Positions 3,852 through 45,404 of a stretch of 64,000 nucleotides of DNA are shown here, piece by piece; the first letter of the stretch is position 1; every line of letters begins with the position of its first letter. The notes below the pieces were generated by a model. It worked only from the letters and a program-made list of their open reading frames with translations, was not told where the DNA came from and did no database searches. The position numbers and the translations under genes were made by a program. Origin of the DNA: Candidatus Denitrolinea symbiosum (GTDB lineage Bacteria; Chloroflexota; Anaerolineae; Anaerolineales; Villigracilaceae). The stretch is taken from assembly GCA_017312345.1 (NCBI GenBank), contig BLAA01000001.1, positions 2,232,001-2,296,000 on the forward strand, read 5' to 3'.

Positions 3852-4649
3852 ATGACTACTGACCAGTATCCCATCCGCCTGCGTTTTGACGGGGCTCAAT
3901 TCAAGACGCGCGGCGTTCCAATCCAGGACCTGGGGGAATCTCTGGTTTTGATCCAGCGTATGGTTTACAAGGCGTATTTTATCCGGGAGAAACAAAGTTT
4001 CAAGAAAGCCGTCCCTTCCACTGCGGAGCGGAAACTCCTGGCGATGGAGATTGCGGGAAGAGAGCGCGGTTCCGATGTGTACCAACTGGCCTGGCTGGCC
4101 CGTGACGTTGCCGACAATGTAGCGGCCGGCGCTTTACAAGGGATATCGGGGGAAATCGCCTCTGCCCTGATGGTCTTAACCGCGAATCAGATATGGGATT
4201 TGATCCAGAAACGCAAACGCCGGCCTGTAGATCTGCTCGCCATTTCCATCTTCAATGATCTTGAGGAACTGACCAATCGTATTGGCAAGGCGGGCGATAT
4301 CCGTCGAATCGAGATTCACTTTGCGGGAAAGCGCGGTCCGGTGGTGATAGACGCGAAAACGCGGGACGCGGTCAAAAACGCGAGGAAGTTGTTGAAAAAG
4401 GGAAAATCCCAGTCGCTGGAGGGCGACGTGATTGCGCCGCATACGATCGGGCAGGACTACGCCTTCGTCCGCGTGGGAACCGACCGCGTCAAAGTCTACA
4501 TGAAGAGGAAGGTGTTTCGGGAAATGATGGCGGTCCTTGGCGAGGAACCGATTGCCCGCCTTCGATTTTCGGGACGCCCGCGGCTGATGATTGACTTTGA
4601 CCCGGGCCGTTTCGTCGAATATTACGCCGATTCCGTTCAACGCGCGTAA
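3852..4649 (+). CDS. Hypothetical protein, 265 aa
   Basis: Soluble 265-residue protein I do not recognise. The start at 3852 is fixed by a perfect AGGAGG four bases upstream. The middle (about 75-125) is rich in alanine and hydrophobic residues and could form an amphipathic helical hairpin. The C-terminal half (150-260) alternates strands and basic segments (KNARKLLKKGK). There is no signal peptide or enzyme motif. It is not in an operon. Confidence 0.7.
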   Translation: MTTDQYPIRLRFDGAQFKTRGVPIQDLGESLVLIQRMVYKAYFIREKQSFKKAVPSTAERKLLAMEIAGRERGSDVYQLAWLARDVADNVAAGALQGISGEIASALMVLTANQIWDLIQKRKRRPVDLLAISIFNDLEELTNRIGKAGDIRRIEIHFAGKRGPVVIDAKTRDAVKNARKLLKKGKSQSLEGDVIAPHTIGQDYAFVRVGTDRVKVYMKRKVFREMMAVLGEEPIARLRFSGRPRLMIDFDPGRFVEYYADSVQRA

Positions 4650-30285: not shown

Positions 30286-31269
30286 GTGCCTAACGGCTTG
30301 CGTTATTAGAATGTCCTTGCCTGGGACGTGGTGTCAGTGTATCCTCGGCGGTGATACCAACCGCGGGAGCGCGGACAGGGCGTGAGCGCGAGGGTCTCCC
30401 GGCCGCAGCTATGGGATGGCGCACAAACGTCAAAGCCCGGTGCGTTAAATGGGAGCCCGCGGAAACTAATCTGGGCCCGGTCAAGACAGCCGGAAGCCCG
30501 TATCGGTACCTGTAACTCAAACCCAACAAGGTCCCGATGTTCTTTCGGGACAATCCACGTCCCAATCCACGAACACAAGGAGAGTGTAGCATGGAAGGAG
30601 CAGAAAAAGCAAGAGGGCTGGAAAGATACATTGGCCTGGACATCCACAAAGAGTACGCGCTGGTCGTGGGGCATGGACGAAAGCGCGCGCCTGGGATTGA
30701 CCTGCAAACAGTTCGCCAAATATGCCTTGTTGAAGTTGGGCGTCGAGACCGACATCACGCGCTTTGTGCGGAAGGACGTGCCGCGTCGGGTGGCCTCCAA
30801 CGCCGAGACGCTGGCGCGCATGGCCGAGTTGGGTCTCAGCCTGTAAGCGGAAGAACGGCGCGTTCCCGCCAGAGCTGGTTCTGGTAAAATGGGCTCACCC
30901 CCCCAGGAAACGGGAACGGCGTCTTTTCAGCGCAGTTCTCGTTTTCATTTACGGGGGGACTTCCAAAATCGGACATCGAGCAGAAGCGGATATTCTCCGA
31001 TTCCGAAAGATGAGTTCGGAGACGGCGAAGCGTTCCCGAAAAAAGGGAAATCCTGGCGGGAAATAAAAAAACGGCCGCCCGCGCAGCCGTGACAGATCGT
31101 CTAAAAATTGATTTCCCAAATTGCATCCCAAAGACTTGACACTGCAAGTAATCGGTACCTGCGCTGGGGCGGGGACGGCGAAGCCGTCCAACTAGAAAAA
31201 TGATAAGGCGTGTGAAAATGCTTGGGATGTGCGCAGAATCCCCAGCGTCAGGTGCACGCTTTGTTCGGC
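30286..31269 (-). repeat. attC-like site of the PIN cassette, containing an inserted element
   Basis: Bounded by GCCGAAC (minus strand, near 31269) and GTTAGGC (near 30288). The outer arms form a CGCTGGGG/CCCCAGCG hairpin (31162-31250), and the rest is split by the 771-bp element at 30390-31160. Confidence 0.75.
30390..31160 (+). mobile_element. IS110-derived miniature element, copy 1
   Basis: 771 bp from GAGGGTCTCCCGG to ATCGGTACCT, with limits set by comparison with empty sites at 38887-39097 and 39774-39984. Holds a GC-rich structured 5' region (about 200 bp), an AAGGAG site and ATG (30591) opening YIGLDIHKEYALVVG, which resembles the IS110 DEDD transposase N-terminus. This frame ends at 30887, only 98 aa. 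A second frame (to 30846) gives CKQFAKYALLKLGVETDI and may be the shifted remainder. A minus-strand intrinsic terminator lies at 31064-31091. ATCGGTACCTG occurs both upstream of the ORF and at the right end. Confidence 0.75.
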
Positions 31270-32025: not shown

Positions 32026-33006
32026 GCCTAACGGTTTGCGTTATGAGAATGTCCTTGCCTGGGACGTGGTGTCAGTGTATCCTCGGCAGTGATACCAACC
32101 GCGGGAGCGCGGACAGGGCGTGAGCGCGAGGGTCTCCCGGCCGCAGCTATGGGATGGCGCACAAACGTCAAAGCCCGGTGCGTTAAATGGGAGCCCGCGG
32201 AAACTAATCTGGGCCCGGTCAAGACAGCCGGAAGCCCGTATCGGTACCTGTAACTCAAACCCAACAAGGTCCCGATGTTCTTTCGGGAAAATCCACGTCC
32301 CAATCCACGAACACAAGGAGAGTGTAGCATGGAAGGAGCAGAAAAAGCAAGAGGGCTGGAAAGATACATTGGCCTGGACATCCACAAAGAGTACGCGCTG
32401 GTCGTGGGACATGGACGAAAGCGCGCGCCTGGGATTGACCTGCAAACAGTTCGCCAAATATGCCTTGTTGAAGTTGGGCGTCGAGACCGACATCACGCGC
32501 TTTGTGCGGAAGGACGTGCCGCGTCGGGTGGCCTCCAACGCCGAGACGCTGGCGCGCATGGCCGAGTTGGGTCTCAGTCTGTAAGCGGAAGAACGGCGCG
32601 TTCCCGCCAGAGCTGGTTCTGGTAAAATGGGCTCACCCCCCAGGAAACGGGAACGGCGTCTTTTCAGCGCAGTTCTCGTTTTCATTTGCGGGGGGACTTC
32701 CAAAATCGGACATCGAGCAGAAGCGGATATTCCCCGATTCCGAAAGATGAGTTCGGGGACGGCGAAGCGTTCCCGAAAAAAGGGAAACCCCGGCGGGAAA
32801 TAAAAAAAACGGCCGCCCGCGCAGCCGTGACAGATCGTCTAAAAATTGATTTCCCAAATTGCATCCCAAAGACTTGACACTGCAAGTAATCGGTACCTGC
32901 GTGTGGGCGGGCGTGGATTCTGCTTGGGAGCAGGAAAAACTCGAAGCGTGGAAAATGCTCGAAAATGCCGCAGAATCCCACACGTCAGGTGCACGCTTTG
33001 TTGTGC
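32026..33006 (-). repeat. attC-like site of the truncated cassette at 33030, with inserted element
   Basis: Bounded by GCACAAC and GTTAGGC on the minus strand. Outer arms CGTGTGGG/CCCACACG and GGATTCTGC/GCAGAATCC fold as a long hairpin. The element lies at 32128-32898. Confidence 0.75.
32128..32898 (+). mobile_element. IS110-derived miniature element, copy 2
   Basis: Same length and ends as copy 1 with a few base changes. The transposase-start ATG is at 32329 and its frame stops at 32625. Confidence 0.75.
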
Positions 33007-35314: not shown

Positions 35315-36297
35315 GTGCCAACACAGCGTGCACCTGACGCTGGGGATTCTGCGCACATCCCAAGCCTTTTTCACGCCTCTGCCTTTTTCTGGCTGGACGG
35401 CTTCGCCGTCCCCGCCCCAGCGCAGGTACCGATTACTTGCAGTGTCAAGTCTTTGGGATGCAATTTGGGAAATCAATTTTTAGACGATCTGTCACGGCTG
35501 CGCGAGCGGCCGTTTTTTTTATTTCCCGCCGGGATTTCCCTTTTTTAGGGAACGCTTCGCCGTCCCCGAACGCATCTTTCGGAATCGGGGAATATCCGCT
35601 TCTGCTCGATGTCCGATTTTGGAAGTCCCCCCGCAAATGAAAACGAGAACTGCGCTGAAAAGACGCCGTTCCCGTTTCCTGGGGGGTGAGCCCATTTTAC
35701 CAGAACCAGCTCGGGCGGGAACGCGCCGTTCTTCCGCTTACAGGCTGAGACCCAACTCGGCCATGCGCGCCAGCGTCTCGGCGTTGGAGGCCACCCGACG
35801 CGGCACGTCCTTCCGCACAAAGCGCGTGATGTCGGTCTCGACGCCCAACTTCAACAAGGCATATTTGGCGAACTGTTTGCAGGTCAATCCCAGGCGCGCG
35901 CTTTCGTCCATGTCCCACGGCCAGCGCGTACTCTTTGTGGATGTCCAGGCCAATGTATCTTTCCAGCCCTCTTGCTTTTTCTGCTCCTTCCATGCTACAC
36001 TCTCCTTGTGTTCGTGGATTGGGACGTGGATTGTCCCGAAAGAACATCGGGACCTTGTTGGGTTTGAGTTACAGGTACCGATACGGGCTTCCGGCTGTCT
36101 TGACCGGGCCCAGATTAGTTTCCGCGGGCTCCCATTTAACGCACCGGGCTTTGACGTTTGTGCGCCATCCCATAGCTGCGGCCGGGAGACCCTCGCGCTC
36201 ACGCCCTGTCCGCGCTCCCGCGGTTGGTATCACCGCCGAGGATACACTGACGCCACGTCCCAGGCAAGGACATTCTAATAACGCAAACCGTTGGCAC
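35315..36297 (+). repeat. attC-like site of nuclease cassette copy 1, with inserted element
   Basis: Bounded by GTGCCAAC and GTTGGCAC, exact complements. CGCTGGGG-type hairpin arm. Orientation is opposite to the outer array. Confidence 0.78.
35424..36194 (-). mobile_element. IS110-derived miniature element, copy 3
   Basis: Same 771-bp element, reversed. Transposase-start ATG at 35993, frame ending at 35697. Confidence 0.75.
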
Positions 36298-37167: not shown

Positions 37168-38175
37168 GTGCCAACACAGCGTGCACCTGACGCTGGGGAT
37201 TCTGCGCACATCCCAAGCCTTTTTCACGCCTCTGCCTTTTTCTGGCTGGACGGCTTCGCCGTCCCCGCCCCAGCGCAGGTACCGATTACTTGCAGTGTCA
37301 AGTCTTTGGGATGCAATTTGGGAAATCAATTTTTAGACGATCTGTCACGGCTGCGCGAGCGGCCGTTTTTTTTATTTCCCGCCGGGATTTCCCTTTTTTA
37401 GGGAACGCTTCGCCGTCCCCGAACGCATCTTTCGGAATCGGGGAATATCCGCTTCTGCTCGATGTCCGATTTTGGAAGTCCCCCCGCAAATGAAAACGAG
37501 AACTGCGCTGAAAAGACGCCGTTCCCGTTTCCTGGGGGGTGAGCCCATTTTACCAGAACCAGCTCGGGCGGGAACGCGCCGTTCTTCCGCTTACAGGCTG
37601 AGACCCAACTCGGCCATGCGCGCCAGCGTCTCGGCGTTGGAGGCCACCCGACGCGGCACGTCCTTCCGCACAAAGCGCGTGATGTCGGTCTCGACGCCCA
37701 ACTTCAACAAGGCATATTTGGCGAACTGTTTGCAGGTCAATCCCAGGCGCGCGCTTTCGTCCATGTCCCACGGCCAGCGCGTACTCTTTGTGGATGTCCA
37801 GGCCAATGTATCTTTCCAGCCCTCTTGCTTTTTCTGCTCCTTCCATGCTACACTCTCCTTGTGTTCGTGGATTGGGACGTGGATTTTCCCGAAAGAACAT
37901 CGGGACCTTGTTGGGCTTGAGTTACAGGTACCGATACGGGCTTCCGGCTGTCTTGACCGGGCCCAGATTAGTTTCCGCGGGCTCCCATTTAACGCACCGG
38001 GCTTTGACGTTTGTGCGCCGTCCCATAGCTGCGGCCGGGAGACCCTCGCGCTCACGCCCTGTCCGCGCTCCCGCGGTTGGTATCACCGCCGAGGATACAC
38101 TGACACCACGTCCCAGGCAAGGACATTCTAATAACGCAAGCCGTTAACGCAAGCCGTTAACGCAAGCCGTTAGCC
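37168..38175 (+). repeat. attC-like site of nuclease cassette copy 2, with element and triplicated end
   Basis: Begins GTGCCAAC and ends in GTTAGCC of the next cassette. The end word TAACGCAAGCCGT is present three times in tandem (38132-38170) instead of once. Confidence 0.75.
37277..38047 (-). mobile_element. IS110-derived miniature element, copy 4
   Basis: Same 771-bp element, reversed. Transposase-start ATG at 37846, frame ending at 37550. Differs from copy 3 at a few bases, so the two duplicated cassettes are not byte-identical. Confidence 0.75.
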
Positions 38176-40259: not shown

Positions 40260-41502
40260 GGTAGCCCCCCACTAAAACGTGGTGGTGCGTAAATCTTGCG
40301 GAAAAATGGGTTCACTGGCAAACTCGTACGACTTCCACATCGAGCGAGGAGTCAATGAACCCACAAACACTATTTTGCCCGAACATGGATTGTCCCGCAA
40401 GAGGACATAAAGGGAAAGGGAACATCCAAGTTCACAGTCAGAAAGACCAGCGGTGTGTGTGTCAAGTGTGCGGACAAACGTTTACGGTCACCAAAGGCAC
40501 GATTTTCTATCGGTTACGCCATGCGCCTGAGCTGGTGATCCAAGTGTTGATTCTGCTGGCATACGGCTGCCCCATTCAAGCCATCGTTCGCGCCTTTGGA
40601 TTGGACGAGCGGACCGTTCGAGATTGGCACGCTCGTGCAGGCAACCATTGTCAGCAGGTACATGAGCATCTGGTTGAAAACACGGTACATGACTTGAAGC
40701 AAGCGCAAGCGGATGAAATCAAAGTCAAGACGCAGAAAGGCACATTCTGGATGGCTCTGGCGATTTGGGTTCAGCCTCGTCTGTGGATGGGCGGGGTGGT
40801 TAGTCCCACACGTGACCTGAATTTGATTCAGGCCTTGGCGGACAAAATCAAGGGCATGGCTTTGTGTCGTCCACTCTTGCTGGCGGTAGACGGATTGTCC
40901 AGTTATGTCGGCGCCTTTCGGACTGCCTTTCGGAGCAAGTTTCCTCGCTCGGAGGGAGAAAGGGGACGATGCAAGATGGTGGCTTGGCAAGAGATTGCCA
41001 TTGTGCAAGTCGTCAAACAGCGTATGGAAGGCGTCCTGAGTGTTAAGCGACGCATTGTTCAGGGTGCAAAAGATGCGGTCGAGCGTCTGATCCAAACCAC
41101 TCAAGGAAAAGGCGTGATCAATACCGCTTTCATCGAACGTCTCAATGCCACCTTTCGTCAGAGGATCAGCGCCCTAACGCGGCGCACGCGCAACTTGGCG
41201 CAACAGGCTGAGACCTTGGTGGCAGGCATGTATTTGGTCGGTTGCTTCTACAACTTTTGTGACTTCCACAAAAGCCTGCGTTTGAAACTGTCTGTTGGTT
41301 CTTTCGGCCATCGCTGGGTGCAACGTACTCCTGCCATCGCCGCAGGCTTGACTGACCATCAGTGGACGCCTGCGGAATTGCTTCACTTCCGAGTTCCGCT
41401 TCCGCGTTGGAAATTGCCCAAACAGCGCGGCAGACCTTCTGCCACCTTGCTTCAACTCACTCAACAATGGGCAAATTGACCACGCTTAACTGCGGCGCTA
41501 CC
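40260..41502 (+). mobile_element. IS1-like insertion sequence, copy B (1243 bp)
   Basis: Same length, ends and orientation as copy A. Its right flank TTGCAAGG, with the reversed right flank of copy A (CCTTGCAA), reconstructs an 8-bp target duplication. Confidence 0.9.
40355..41479 (+). CDS. IS1-like transposase (copy B)
   Basis: 374 residues, identical to copy A except for one lysine-to-glutamate change near residue 103. The near identity shows recent duplication. Confidence 0.88.
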   Translation: MNPQTLFCPNMDCPARGHKGKGNIQVHSQKDQRCVCQVCGQTFTVTKGTIFYRLRHAPELVIQVLILLAYGCPIQAIVRAFGLDERTVRDWHARAGNHCQQVHEHLVENTVHDLKQAQADEIKVKTQKGTFWMALAIWVQPRLWMGGVVSPTRDLNLIQALADKIKGMALCRPLLLAVDGLSSYVGAFRTAFRSKFPRSEGERGRCKMVAWQEIAIVQVVKQRMEGVLSVKRRIVQGAKDAVERLIQTTQGKGVINTAFIERLNATFRQRISALTRRTRNLAQQAETLVAGMYLVGCFYNFCDFHKSLRLKLSVGSFGHRWVQRTPAIAAGLTDHQWTPAELLHFRVPLPRWKLPKQRGRPSATLLQLTQQWAN

Positions 41503-41513
41503 TTGCAAGGGGC

Positions 41514-42495
41514 GTGCCAACGGTTTGCGTTATGAGAATGTCCTTGCCTGGGACGTGGTGTCAGTGTATCCTCGGCGGTGATACCAACCGCGGGAGCGCG
41601 GACAGGGCGTGAGCGCGAGGGTCTCCCGGCCGCAGCTATGGGATGGCGCACAAACGTCAAAGCCCGGTGCGTTAAATGGGAGCCCGCGGAAACTAATCTG
41701 GGCCCGGTCAAGACAGCCGGAAGCCCGTATCGGTACCTGTAACTCAAACCCAACAAGGTCCCGATGTTCTTTCGGGAAAATCCACGTCCCAATCCACGAA
41801 CACAAGGAGAGTGTAGCATGGAAGGAGCAGAAAAAGCAAGAGGGCTGGAAAGATACATTGGCCTGGACATCCACAAAGAGTACGCGCTGGTCGTGGGACA
41901 TGGACGAAAGCGCGCGCCTGGGATTGACCTGCAAACAGTTCGCCAAATATGCCTTGTTGAAGTTGGGCGTCGAGACCGACATCACGCGCTTTGTGCGGAA
42001 GGACGTGCCGCGTCGGGTGGCCTCCAACGCCGAGACGCTGGCGCGCATGGCCGAGTTGGGTCTCAGTCTGTAAGCGGAAGAACGGCGCGTTCCCGCCAGA
42101 GCTGGTTCTGGTAAAATGGGCTCACCCCCCAGGAAACGGGAACGGCGTCTTTTCAGCGCAGTTCTCGTTTTCATTTGCGGGGGGACTTCCAAAATCGGAC
42201 ATCGAGCAGAAGCGGATATTCCCCGATTCCGAAAGATGAGTTCGGGGACGGCGAAGCGTTCCCGAAAAAAGGGAAACCCCGGCGGGAAATAAAAAAAACG
42301 GCCGCCCGCGCAGCCGTGACAGATCGTCTAAAAATTGATTTCCCAAATTGCATCCCAAAGACTTGACACTGCAAGTAATCGGTACCTGCGTGTGGGCGGG
42401 CGTGGATTCTGCTTGGGAGCAGGAAAAACTCGAAGCGTGGAAAATGCTCGAAAATGCCGCAGAATCCCACACGTCAGGTGCACGCTGTGTTGGGC
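41514..42495 (-). repeat. attC-like site of the receiver cassette, with inserted element
   Basis: Minus strand GCCCAAC near 42495 to GTTGGCAC near 41514. GTGTGGG-type hairpin arm. Confidence 0.77.
41617..42387 (+). mobile_element. IS110-derived miniature element, copy 5
   Basis: 771 bp. Transposase-start ATG at 41818, frame to 42114. Very close to copy 2. Confidence 0.75.
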
Positions 42496-42510: not shown

Positions 42511-43284
42511 TCAACTGTGGGTAACAATAGCCTTCATCACCATTGGGAATAGCTCTTGCGGATTATTTGTTGTGCCTTGACCGCCATGTTCAATAGTTTC
42601 GTGCTTATGTTCTGGCAAATTTGAGCCAGCGTAAATAAAATATGGCGTTTGGTTGCCCTGTTGTCGTACCGTATCTAATAAAACATACCCTTCTCGGTTT
42701 CCTTCTCGCCTGCCCATATCAGAAATGATAGCGGCGTATTTATTGCGCTTAAGGAGTTCTAATGCTTCGTTAGTAGATAGAGCGAGAGTGAATTGTATGC
42801 CCACAGATTCAAACGCCCTACGTTCATAAGTATTGTTATCTGGGCGGTCATCAACCCAAAGAATATGATTACGCCAATCATTTTTCTCTTGTAGATTAGC
42901 AGGGATAGATTGCCTTACCACTTCAATAATTTTTTGTATATCAATTTCCGATGTTGGCACATCAGATTTTGTAGTGGCAGCAGTTAGTTGTGCCACAGCC
43001 GTCATTTGCATTTTTACATAATTTTCTTCGTCTTTGAAGTCGCTTGGCGAAAAAAGTTTTCCGCTGTGCCTACTTACCAACCATGCAAAGACAATCAACA
43101 CAATCACTGGGAACAGAACTAAAAACCAAATAAGAGGTAATCTTTCGCTTGGAGTTAGTGAACCTGAAAAAGCCGTAACGAGTCCAGCGACTCCATAAAT
43201 AAGAACTATGAAAAGCGCAATAATGCCGAGTGGGTTACGAGACAAACTTTTTGCCGTTTGACCAAATGAATTTAATTCGCTCAT
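42511..43284 (-). CDS. Membrane-anchored receiver-like protein (integron cassette)
   Basis: 257 residues: two membrane helices (about 18-40 and 48-68), a helical linker (about 85-135), then a receiver-like domain from HILWVDDRPDNNTYERRAFESVG (about 142) with the acceptor-site aspartate in AAIISDMGRREGNREGY (about 185) and TPYFIYAG (about 213). It has no DNA-binding output, so it is unusual for a response regulator. Cassette ends CCTGCCCAAC and GTTGGGCAGG match. Function unknown. Confidence 0.78.
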   Translation of the reverse strand: MSELNSFGQTAKSLSRNPLGIIALFIVLIYGVAGLVTAFSGSLTPSERLPLIWFLVLFPVIVLIVFAWLVSRHSGKLFSPSDFKDEENYVKMQMTAVAQLTAATTKSDVPTSEIDIQKIIEVVRQSIPANLQEKNDWRNHILWVDDRPDNNTYERRAFESVGIQFTLALSTNEALELLKRNKYAAIISDMGRREGNREGYVLLDTVRQQGNQTPYFIYAGSNLPEHKHETIEHGGQGTTNNPQELFPMVMKAIVTHS

Positions 43285-43319: not shown

Positions 43320-44300
43320 GCCCAACGGTTTGCGTTATTAGAATGTCCTTGCCTGGGACGTGGCGTCAGTGTATCCTCGGCGGTGATACCAACCGCGGGA
43401 GCGCGGACAGGGCGTGAGCGCGAGGGTCTCCCGGCCGCAGCTATGGGATGGCGCACAAACGTCAAAGCCCGGTGCGTTAAATGGGAGCCCGCGGAAACTA
43501 ATCTGGGCCCGGTCAAAACAGCCGGAAGCCCGTATCGGTACCTGTAACTCAAACCCAACAAGGTCCCGATGTTCTTTCGGGAAAATCCACGTCCCAATCC
43601 ACGAACACAAGGAGAGTGTAGCATGGAAGGAGCAGAAAAAGCAAGAGGGCTGGAAAGATACATTGGCCTGGACATCCACAAAGAGTACGCGCTGGTCGTG
43701 GGACATGGACGAAAGCGCGCGCCTGGGATTGACCTGCAAACAGTTCGCCAAATATGCCTTGTTGAAGTTGGGCGTCGAGACCGACATCACGCGCTTTGTG
43801 CGGAAGGACGTGCCGCGTCGGGTGGCCTCCAACGCCGAGACGCTGGCGCGCATGGCCGAGTTGGGTCTCAGCCTGTAAGCGGAAGAACGGCGCGTTCCCG
43901 CCAGAGCTGGTTCTGGTAAAATGGGCTCACCCCCCAGGAAACGGGAACGGCGTCTTTTCAGCGCAGTTCTCGTTTTCATTTGCGGGGGGACTTCCAAAAT
44001 CGGACATCGAGCAGAAGCGGATATTCCCCGATTCCGAAAGATGAGTTCGGGGACGGCGAAGCGTTCCCGAAAAAAGGGAAACCCCGGCGGGAAATAAAAA
44101 AACGGCCGCCCGCGCAGCCGTGACAGATCGTCTAAAAATTGATTTCCCAAATTGCATCCCAAAGACTTGACACTGCAAGTAATCGGTACCTGCGTGTGGG
44201 CGGGCGTGGACTCTGCTTGGGAGCAGGATAAAACTCGAAGCCAGAAAAATGCTCGAAAATGCCGCAGAATCCCACACGTCAGGTGCACGCTTTGTTGGGC
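43320..44300 (-). repeat. attC-like site of the first cassette, with inserted element
   Basis: Minus strand GCCCAAC near 44300 to GTTGGGC near 43320, same hairpin arms. Confidence 0.77.
43422..44191 (+). mobile_element. IS110-derived miniature element, copy 6
   Basis: 770 bp (one A fewer in the A-run of the terminator). Transposase-start ATG at 43623, frame to 43919. Confidence 0.75.
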
Positions 44301-45085: not shown

Positions 45086-45092
45086 GCCCAAC
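45086..45092 (-). other. attI/cassette junction
   Basis: GTTGGGC on the minus strand at the start of the first cassette, after which no attC repeat remains on the integrase side. GTTGGGCAAC here is complementary to GTTGCCCAAC at the other end of the same cassette (44294-44303). The attI region is expected at 45093-45290. Confidence 0.6.
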
Positions 45093-45100
45093 TATGTATT

Positions 45101-45230
45101 ATACGGAAAGTTTCCGTATAACCGCCCCCTGCGGGGGCTTATGCGGACGTTTTCCGTATAAGACCCCAAATCAGCGTCATATACGGAATTTTTCTGTATA
45201 ATATCCTTGTCCAGAGTCATATACAGAAAC
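45101..45230. repeat. Array of 20-bp palindromes with a 40-bp period
   Basis: ATACGGAAAGTTTCCGTATA at 45101-45120, ATGCGGACGTTTTCCGTATA at 45141-45160 and ATACGGAATTTTTCTGTATA at 45181-45200, then a half-site ATACAGAAAC at 45221-45230. The first spacer is itself a hairpin (GCCCCCTGCGGGGGC). Lies between the first cassette and the integrase start. Operators for integrase or cassette transcription, or integrase accessory sites, are possible. Confidence 0.75.
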
Positions 45231-45290
45231 ATTGCGCCAAATATACAATCAGTTTCATAATTTGACAATCCTTTTGCCGCAGGAAAAATC

Positions 45291-45404
45291 ATGGAAAACC
45301 CAACCGCCCAACCTCCGCAGGGAAGAAAACTCCTCGACCAGGTCCGCGACATGATCAAAACCAAACACTACTCCTCGCGCACTGGCGAGACCTGCGTGTA
45401 CTAA
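45291..45404 (+). pseudogene. intI: Integron integrase, N-terminal stub
   Basis: 37 codons followed by TAA. GRKLLDQVRDMIKTKHYSSR and TGETCVY align with the N-terminus of IntI-type tyrosine recombinases (LLDQVRxxIRxKHYSxRTExxYV). The start follows CAGGAAAA. The catalytic domain is missing, and the gene ends 17 bp from the stop of the convergent CoA-transferase gene. Its position, divergent from the cassettes, is the normal place for intI. Integration and excision must now depend on an integrase elsewhere or have ceased. Confidence 0.8.

Follow-up and report, generated by a model that had tools for sequence, protein, structure and literature searches.

Most of what is known about attI sites comes from class 1 integrons and Vibrio, almost the only systems in which such sites have been dissected. 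In the class 1 site attI1, the L box reads CCCTAAA and lies before ACAAAGTTAGGC (PMC12901181), the integrase IntI1 binds the repeats DR1 and DR2 (PMC3518468; PMC12901181), and the best attI x attC reaction needs the full four-site attI1 (PMC3518468; PMC12901181). The attIA site of Vibrio cholerae also consists of an R/L core that adjoins intI, but it is without repeats of this kind (PMC8946536) and its intI is under the control of LexA and CRP. It has been proposed that an attI site co-evolves with its integrase (PMC8946536), and how intI is silenced outside the LexA-controlled Proteobacteria has been stated as an open question (PMC3108266).

The locus described here belongs to Candidatus Denitrolinea symbiosum, and the window is the whole 64,000-nucleotide stretch of this genome that was analyzed. 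Several hallmarks of an integron attI site are found in it (Table 1). These include a 7-bp GTTRRRY core at the platform/cassette junction (GTTGGGC, 45092-45086 on the minus strand), an inverted L box 6 nt away from this R box that aligns with the L box of attI1 (CCGTATAA-TACATA-GTTGGGC in the window versus CCCTAAA-ACAAA-GTTAGGC in attI1, whose sequence was confirmed in plasmid records), and adjacency to intI, represented by an IntI remnant here and by an intact IntI in relatives. The cassette side contains a cassette-like gene and, as judged from the letters of the sequence, an attC-like GTTGGGC at 44294 in a site that is interrupted by an insertion of ~960 bp.

Table 1. Features of the attI region and its palindrome array (positions are those of the window).
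Feature	Position	Strand	Sequence or remark
attI core (R box); platform/first cassette boundary	45086..45092	-	GTTGGGC on -, GCCCAAC on +; core-palindrome distance as in at least ~100 loci
attI L box, also outer arm of palindrome 1	45099..45106	-	CCGTATAA on -, TTATACGG on +; position agrees with attI1 L box
Palindrome 1, arms perfect	45100..45120		TATACGGAAAGTTTCCGTATA
Spacer 1, 19 bp, centred dyad	45121..45139		CCGCCCCCTGCGGGGGC (hairpin ~45122-45138)
Palindrome 2	45140..45160		TATGCGGACGTTTTCCGTATA
Spacer 2	45161..45179		AGACCCCAAATCAGCGTCA
Palindrome 3	45180..45200		TATACGGAATTTTTCTGTATA
Palindrome 4, decayed	45220..45240		left arm TATACAGAA remains, right arm gone
intI stub, 37 codons of integron integrase then TAA	45291..45404	+	stop 45402-45404; remainder of gene missing
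First-cassette gene, 243 aa	44315..45046	-	weak DUF4352 match below cut-off; start ~40 bp from attI core, transcribed away from intI
attC-like core at first-cassette end	44294..44300	+	GTTGGGC, preceded by CACGTCAGGTGCACGCTTT; site split by ~960-bp insertion

Between the attI core GCCCAAC (45086-45092) and the 37-codon intI stub (45291-45404) lies an array of palindromes that steps by exactly 40 bp (45100, 45140, 45180 and a fourth, half-decayed palindrome at 45220) and begins after a gap of 7 bp from GCCCAAC. Both direct reading and a repeat finder recovered this register, as the first-pass annotation of the DNA had reported it beside the integrase stub, and the existence of the palindromes was likewise upheld; their frame was off by one, with a start at 45100 instead of 45101, and their length is 21 rather than 20 bp, in the layout TATACGGAA NNN TTCCGTATA. 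By the repeat finder, the 22-bp units at these four positions are 100, 82, 86 and 68% identical to the first unit. The half-site that is repeated throughout the window array is TTATACGGA, of which the family form is TTA[TG][AG]C-N-G[AC]. With up to 3 mismatches and on both strands, the window contains 7 matches to the pattern versus 0.15 expected, a number reached by 0 of 100 shuffles, while at the same tolerance the palindrome pattern is absent from the whole genome (3,705,798 bp) outside the array locus. This search, which the annotation had recommended, thus returned a single place and no regulon. Therefore, a genome-wide intergenic repeat unrelated to integrons, the finding that would have spoken against the original observation, can be ruled out, since the motif is confined to one place in this genome and most of the matches listed from other genomes lie at attI cores or intI remnants.

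When 84,980 species genomes were scanned for the palindrome without selection, at least 118 stretches were retrieved, mostly from Cyanobacteria and Anaerolineae. Among the matches listed, clustering of the neighboring ORFs identified IntI as the commonest neighbor family of the motif, with IntI or its remnants inside the retrieved DNA for many of them, and no regulator gene was recurrent beside it. The exact-pattern sites among these matches comprise 80 that are directly at an AAC core, 9 more within such an array, and 29 that are neither; the last are array fragments plus scattered single matches in Clostridia and other bacteria, and the isolated ones are probably due to chance. At least ~100 loci of Cyanobacteria and Chloroflexota share a layout in which AACTA and 5 nt precede palindrome 1, and later palindromes follow towards intI in steps of 39-41 bp or, at some loci, of 32 or 72-73 bp. 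For example, the spacings in Nostocales are about 73, 39, 41, 32 and 40 bp towards the start codon. AACTA was used as the anchor in place of a strict RYYYAAC core, a search for which failed at many loci because the letters of the R box come from the cassette. The attI signature was present in 21 of 291 cyanobacterial genomes and in 0 of 299 Pseudomonadota genomes, with a near-complete IntI kept in 15 of the 291 cyanobacteria. The array is a real and conserved feature. It appears to be unreported, since the open-access literature searched does not describe arrays of this kind for either Cyanobacteria or Chloroflexota; a description may exist elsewhere.

The spelling of the array boxes points to the integrase as the protein that would occupy them. 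The annotation had not recognized the array as a feature of attI sites and did not make the link to DR1 and DR2, by which extra integrase sites in an attI were already known. As in attI1, the extra boxes lie between the R/L core and intI, the L box occupies the same place, and the boxes resemble each other in sequence (TTAYGSAGC in attI1 versus TTATACGGA in the array). The attI1 repeats, however, are two in number (three in the locus examined), direct, and 16-19 bp apart, or about two helical turns, whereas the array consists of inverted pairs, with up to ~6 palindromes that are set at 40 (32, 72-73) bp and reach towards the intI start. The array thus fits DR1/DR2 in its IntI-box-like spelling and in its place between core and intI, but not in layout. 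When a matrix built from 21 distinct L boxes of Cyanobacteria and Chloroflexota was applied to the 4,938 9-mers of a class 1 integron locus, DR1 (TTATGGAGC) ranked second and DR2 (TTACGCAGC, two copies there) third, where the letters of DR1 and DR2 are assigned from the direct repeat that can be seen there and from what is generally known of attI1.

A comparison of boxes within loci gave a similar picture. Across 28 attI sites (the window and 27 others that have an IntI), later half-sites had a mean best match of 7.71/9 to the L box of their own locus versus 6.87/9 to those of other loci, a preference that was reached by 0 of 20,000 permutations, which treat related loci as independent, and that persisted with divergent boxes only; local duplication alone may also bring the half-sites of an array close to the L box in spelling. 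In addition, the half-site type follows the IntI clade; for example, loci L181-L184 have TATACAGC, whereas other IntI/attI pairs are of the TATACGGA type. Within a clade, some IntIs (L007, L166 and L170) are accompanied by no more than one or two boxes or by a long gap, and an array is missing from many IntIs of Chloroflexota; not all of these integrases can need it. Taken together, position, recurrence, spelling and the tracking of IntI clades suggest that IntI binds the array boxes, and we consider it probable, though well short of certain, that the array is an expanded set of IntI-binding boxes that forms the accessory part of a Cyanobacteria/Chloroflexota type of attI. Because it recurs at many attI sites and is spelled like integrase docking sites, it is probably a multi-site landing pad rather than a stray repeat, and we read it as an enlarged form of the accessory sites known from attI, not as a new kind of system.

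The period of the array can also be recovered without reference to its motif. To guard against circularity, any repeat with a lag of 20 to 74 bp was scored in the 300 bp upstream of intI. The best lag was 40-42 or 72-73 in 12 of 18 cyanobacterial regions (z 2.7-13), and a lag of 40-41 was found in the Chloroflexota loci L010 (z 9.3), L020 (z 6.5), L184 (z 3.9) and L164 (lag 40, z 15.8), while 0 of 29 Pseudomonadota regions had such a lag. Spacings of 39-41, 32 and 72-73 bp keep the helical phase (resultant 0.86 at 10.5 bp), which supports across loci the earlier proposal that the sites share one phase of the helix. L164 (Chloroflexota, G401:C102) has an IntI of another clade and keeps the 40-bp period with a unit sequence that is unrelated to TATACGGAA; upstream of another intI, also of another clade, L161 has a 71-bp repeat (z 19) that is unrelated to it as well.

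Perfect palindromes could act in a folded strand as well as in a duplex, and the reading that was initially favored takes the array as a string of hairpins, either in RNA (an intI mRNA leader) or in folded single-stranded DNA. Spacers generally contain weak, exactly centred dyads (49% paired versus 43% in shuffled sequences), co-variation between loci is seen in the first palindromes (329 pairs versus 308 +/- 4), and in Nostocales (L103 4681-4705, L132 6632-6656) palindrome 1 is followed by a conserved CTTTTTC run and, read towards intI, scores weakly as a terminator, with 3 G-C pairs. The window array, however, is without a T-run, and two tests contradict the hairpin reading, leaving it highly improbable. 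Wobble-type mismatches are strand-symmetric on the intI-sense strand (G.T/A.C counts of 25 vs 22 and of 114 vs 113), and within an array arms pair with their own partners no better than across palindromes (1680 vs 1666 +/- 12, or 1032 vs 1050 when the first palindrome is left out). The hairpin which the annotation had placed in the first spacer is real, but it is one instance of the dyads common to the spacers, and these results give it no special role. In a search of Rfam, a tRNA alone was matched in the window, and the array matched no family. The arms thus behave like repeats of a single half-site that a protein would read in the duplex. One candidate for such a protein is LexA, as a palindromic LexA box near the intI promoter controls Pint in other integrons, Vibrio and class 1 among them, and SOS control of intI is established in β/γ-Proteobacteria (PMC3108266). 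A LexA box nevertheless differs from the array in sequence and in having a genome-wide regulon. The lexA promoter of this genome contains CAGAACGCCTGTTCTG (GAAC-N4-GTTC) without the array half-site, and a GAAC-N4-GTTC site is absent from 45090-45300; a LexA/SOS operator array is ruled out by this absence of the genome's own LexA site and has next to no probability.

Two further readings keep the duplex and dispense with IntI on the array. In one, a dimeric repressor encoded by the host, or else a nucleoid protein, binds the palindromes as an operator array, silences intI and sets the promoter of the first cassette, with IntI confined to the core. Short perfect palindromes that are spaced by four turns and extend as far as the start of intI do resemble a cooperative repressor array, the variation within the array is of the type expected for a half-site in double-stranded DNA, and where LexA-type control is absent another brake on intI is expected (PMC3108266). 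Against a host repressor are the lack of a regulon (this genome has the motif at attI and at no other place, and most of the matches listed from other genomes are linked to attI as well), the lack of a recurrent regulator gene beside it, and a half-site that varies with the IntI clade, equals the L box, and shares its spelling with the attI1 repeats, whose hosts belong to another phylum, so we regard this reading as unlikely while giving it some weight. The other reading is a neutral tandem duplication of the L-box region that has no function. It would account for the like spelling, and it agrees with the decay of site 4, with the dead intI in the window and with the frequent occurrence of cyanobacterial copies beside a broken intI, but it is improbable given that spacing and core distance are the same across two phyla despite diverged half-sites, and that the helical phase is kept when the spacing shifts to 32 or 73 bp.

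With the array read as IntI boxes, a mechanism can be proposed. The half-site would duplicate the L box of attI, at which IntI docks on double-stranded attI, and each palindrome would offer two such boxes in inverted orientation. A setting of 40 bp (also 32 or 72-73 in relatives) would put the bound proteins on about the same side of the helix, so that a regular complex could grow out from the crossover point in the direction of the start codon of intI. By analogy to DR1/DR2 in attI1, the extra IntI subunits would favor correct attI x attC insertion, and a role in cassette insertion is the most likely one. Judging from position, IntI occupancy between attI and intI may reduce intI transcription and perhaps that of the first cassette too, and such autocontrol of intI, which could stand in for LexA, is probable from the placement of the array. 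Of the functions offered in the annotation, a repressor array or accessory sites for integrase or host factors, the evidence thus favors integrase accessory sites, and control of intI by its own product would probably follow from where they lie. It is possible, and we put it forward tentatively, that both functions are joined in a phased multi-dyad attI, in which the IntI complex directs insertion and represses its own gene, as a LexA-independent, integrase-only control whose box code co-evolves with the IntI clade. Multiple recombinase or accessory sites beside the core control direction in lambda attP and with other tyrosine recombinases. The array differs from such arm-type arrays in that its boxes look like core boxes rather than a separate arm motif, and IntI is not known to have a second DNA-binding domain.

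The conserved box array provides a sequence handle on the quieting of intI and on attI itself, which it defines precisely in two phyla, and natural co-variation makes box recognition by IntI testable. The search pattern also finds attI sites that lack an intI; cyanobacterial genomes have several of these each, and plasmid pSYSM of the model strain Synechocystis PCC 6803 has one. As many sites are without an adjoining intI, orphan attI sites are common. The pSYSM site (from 79082; L269 ~4001-4100) has a decayed second palindrome, no intI nearby, and lies upstream of an alpha/beta-hydrolase gene, and the same hydrolase/dehydrogenase pair adjoins the copy on pSYLB of PCC 6714. In Microcystis (L070, L136, L146, L150 and others) there are several attI-like cores with arrays per few kb or per genome, mostly without intI and with different breakpoints on the intI side.

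The window array is itself an orphan: its intI is deleted, its site 4 is decayed, and if any integrase still acts on it, this would have to be a different IntI supplied in trans. The stub is 69.6% identical to the N-terminus of an intact Anaerolineales IntI, and a second genome of the species (L017) carries the same stub. A different, intact IntI is encoded 186 kb away (C1:2463028), and its attI is without such palindromes but has a long-range pair, TTAGGCTGC...GCAGCCTAA. Matches to sigma-70 promoters were few and near chance level in the window and in relatives, and none could be assigned.

Copies of the ~960-bp element, 95-99% identical, are present in the window at 30298-31173, 32036-32996, 41525-42485 and 43330-44290, with further copies at 35326-36286 and 37179-38139 (both on the minus strand) and at C1:2452995-2457000 near the intact IntI. 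The element is inserted in attC-like sites, its near-full genomic copies are all near the two integrons, and a fragment of it reads like the N-terminus of an IS110-type (DEDD) transposase (GLERYIGLDIHKEYALVVG). It resembles the IS1111-attC elements in this habit, but its transposase is broken and gave no Pfam match. A 374-aa transposase-like ORF with an HTH_29 winged-helix match below cut-off lies between cassettes at 40355-41479, and a cassette-like gene at 42511-43284 (minus strand), which lies between two copies of the ~960-bp element, encodes a response-regulator receiver domain (PF00072).
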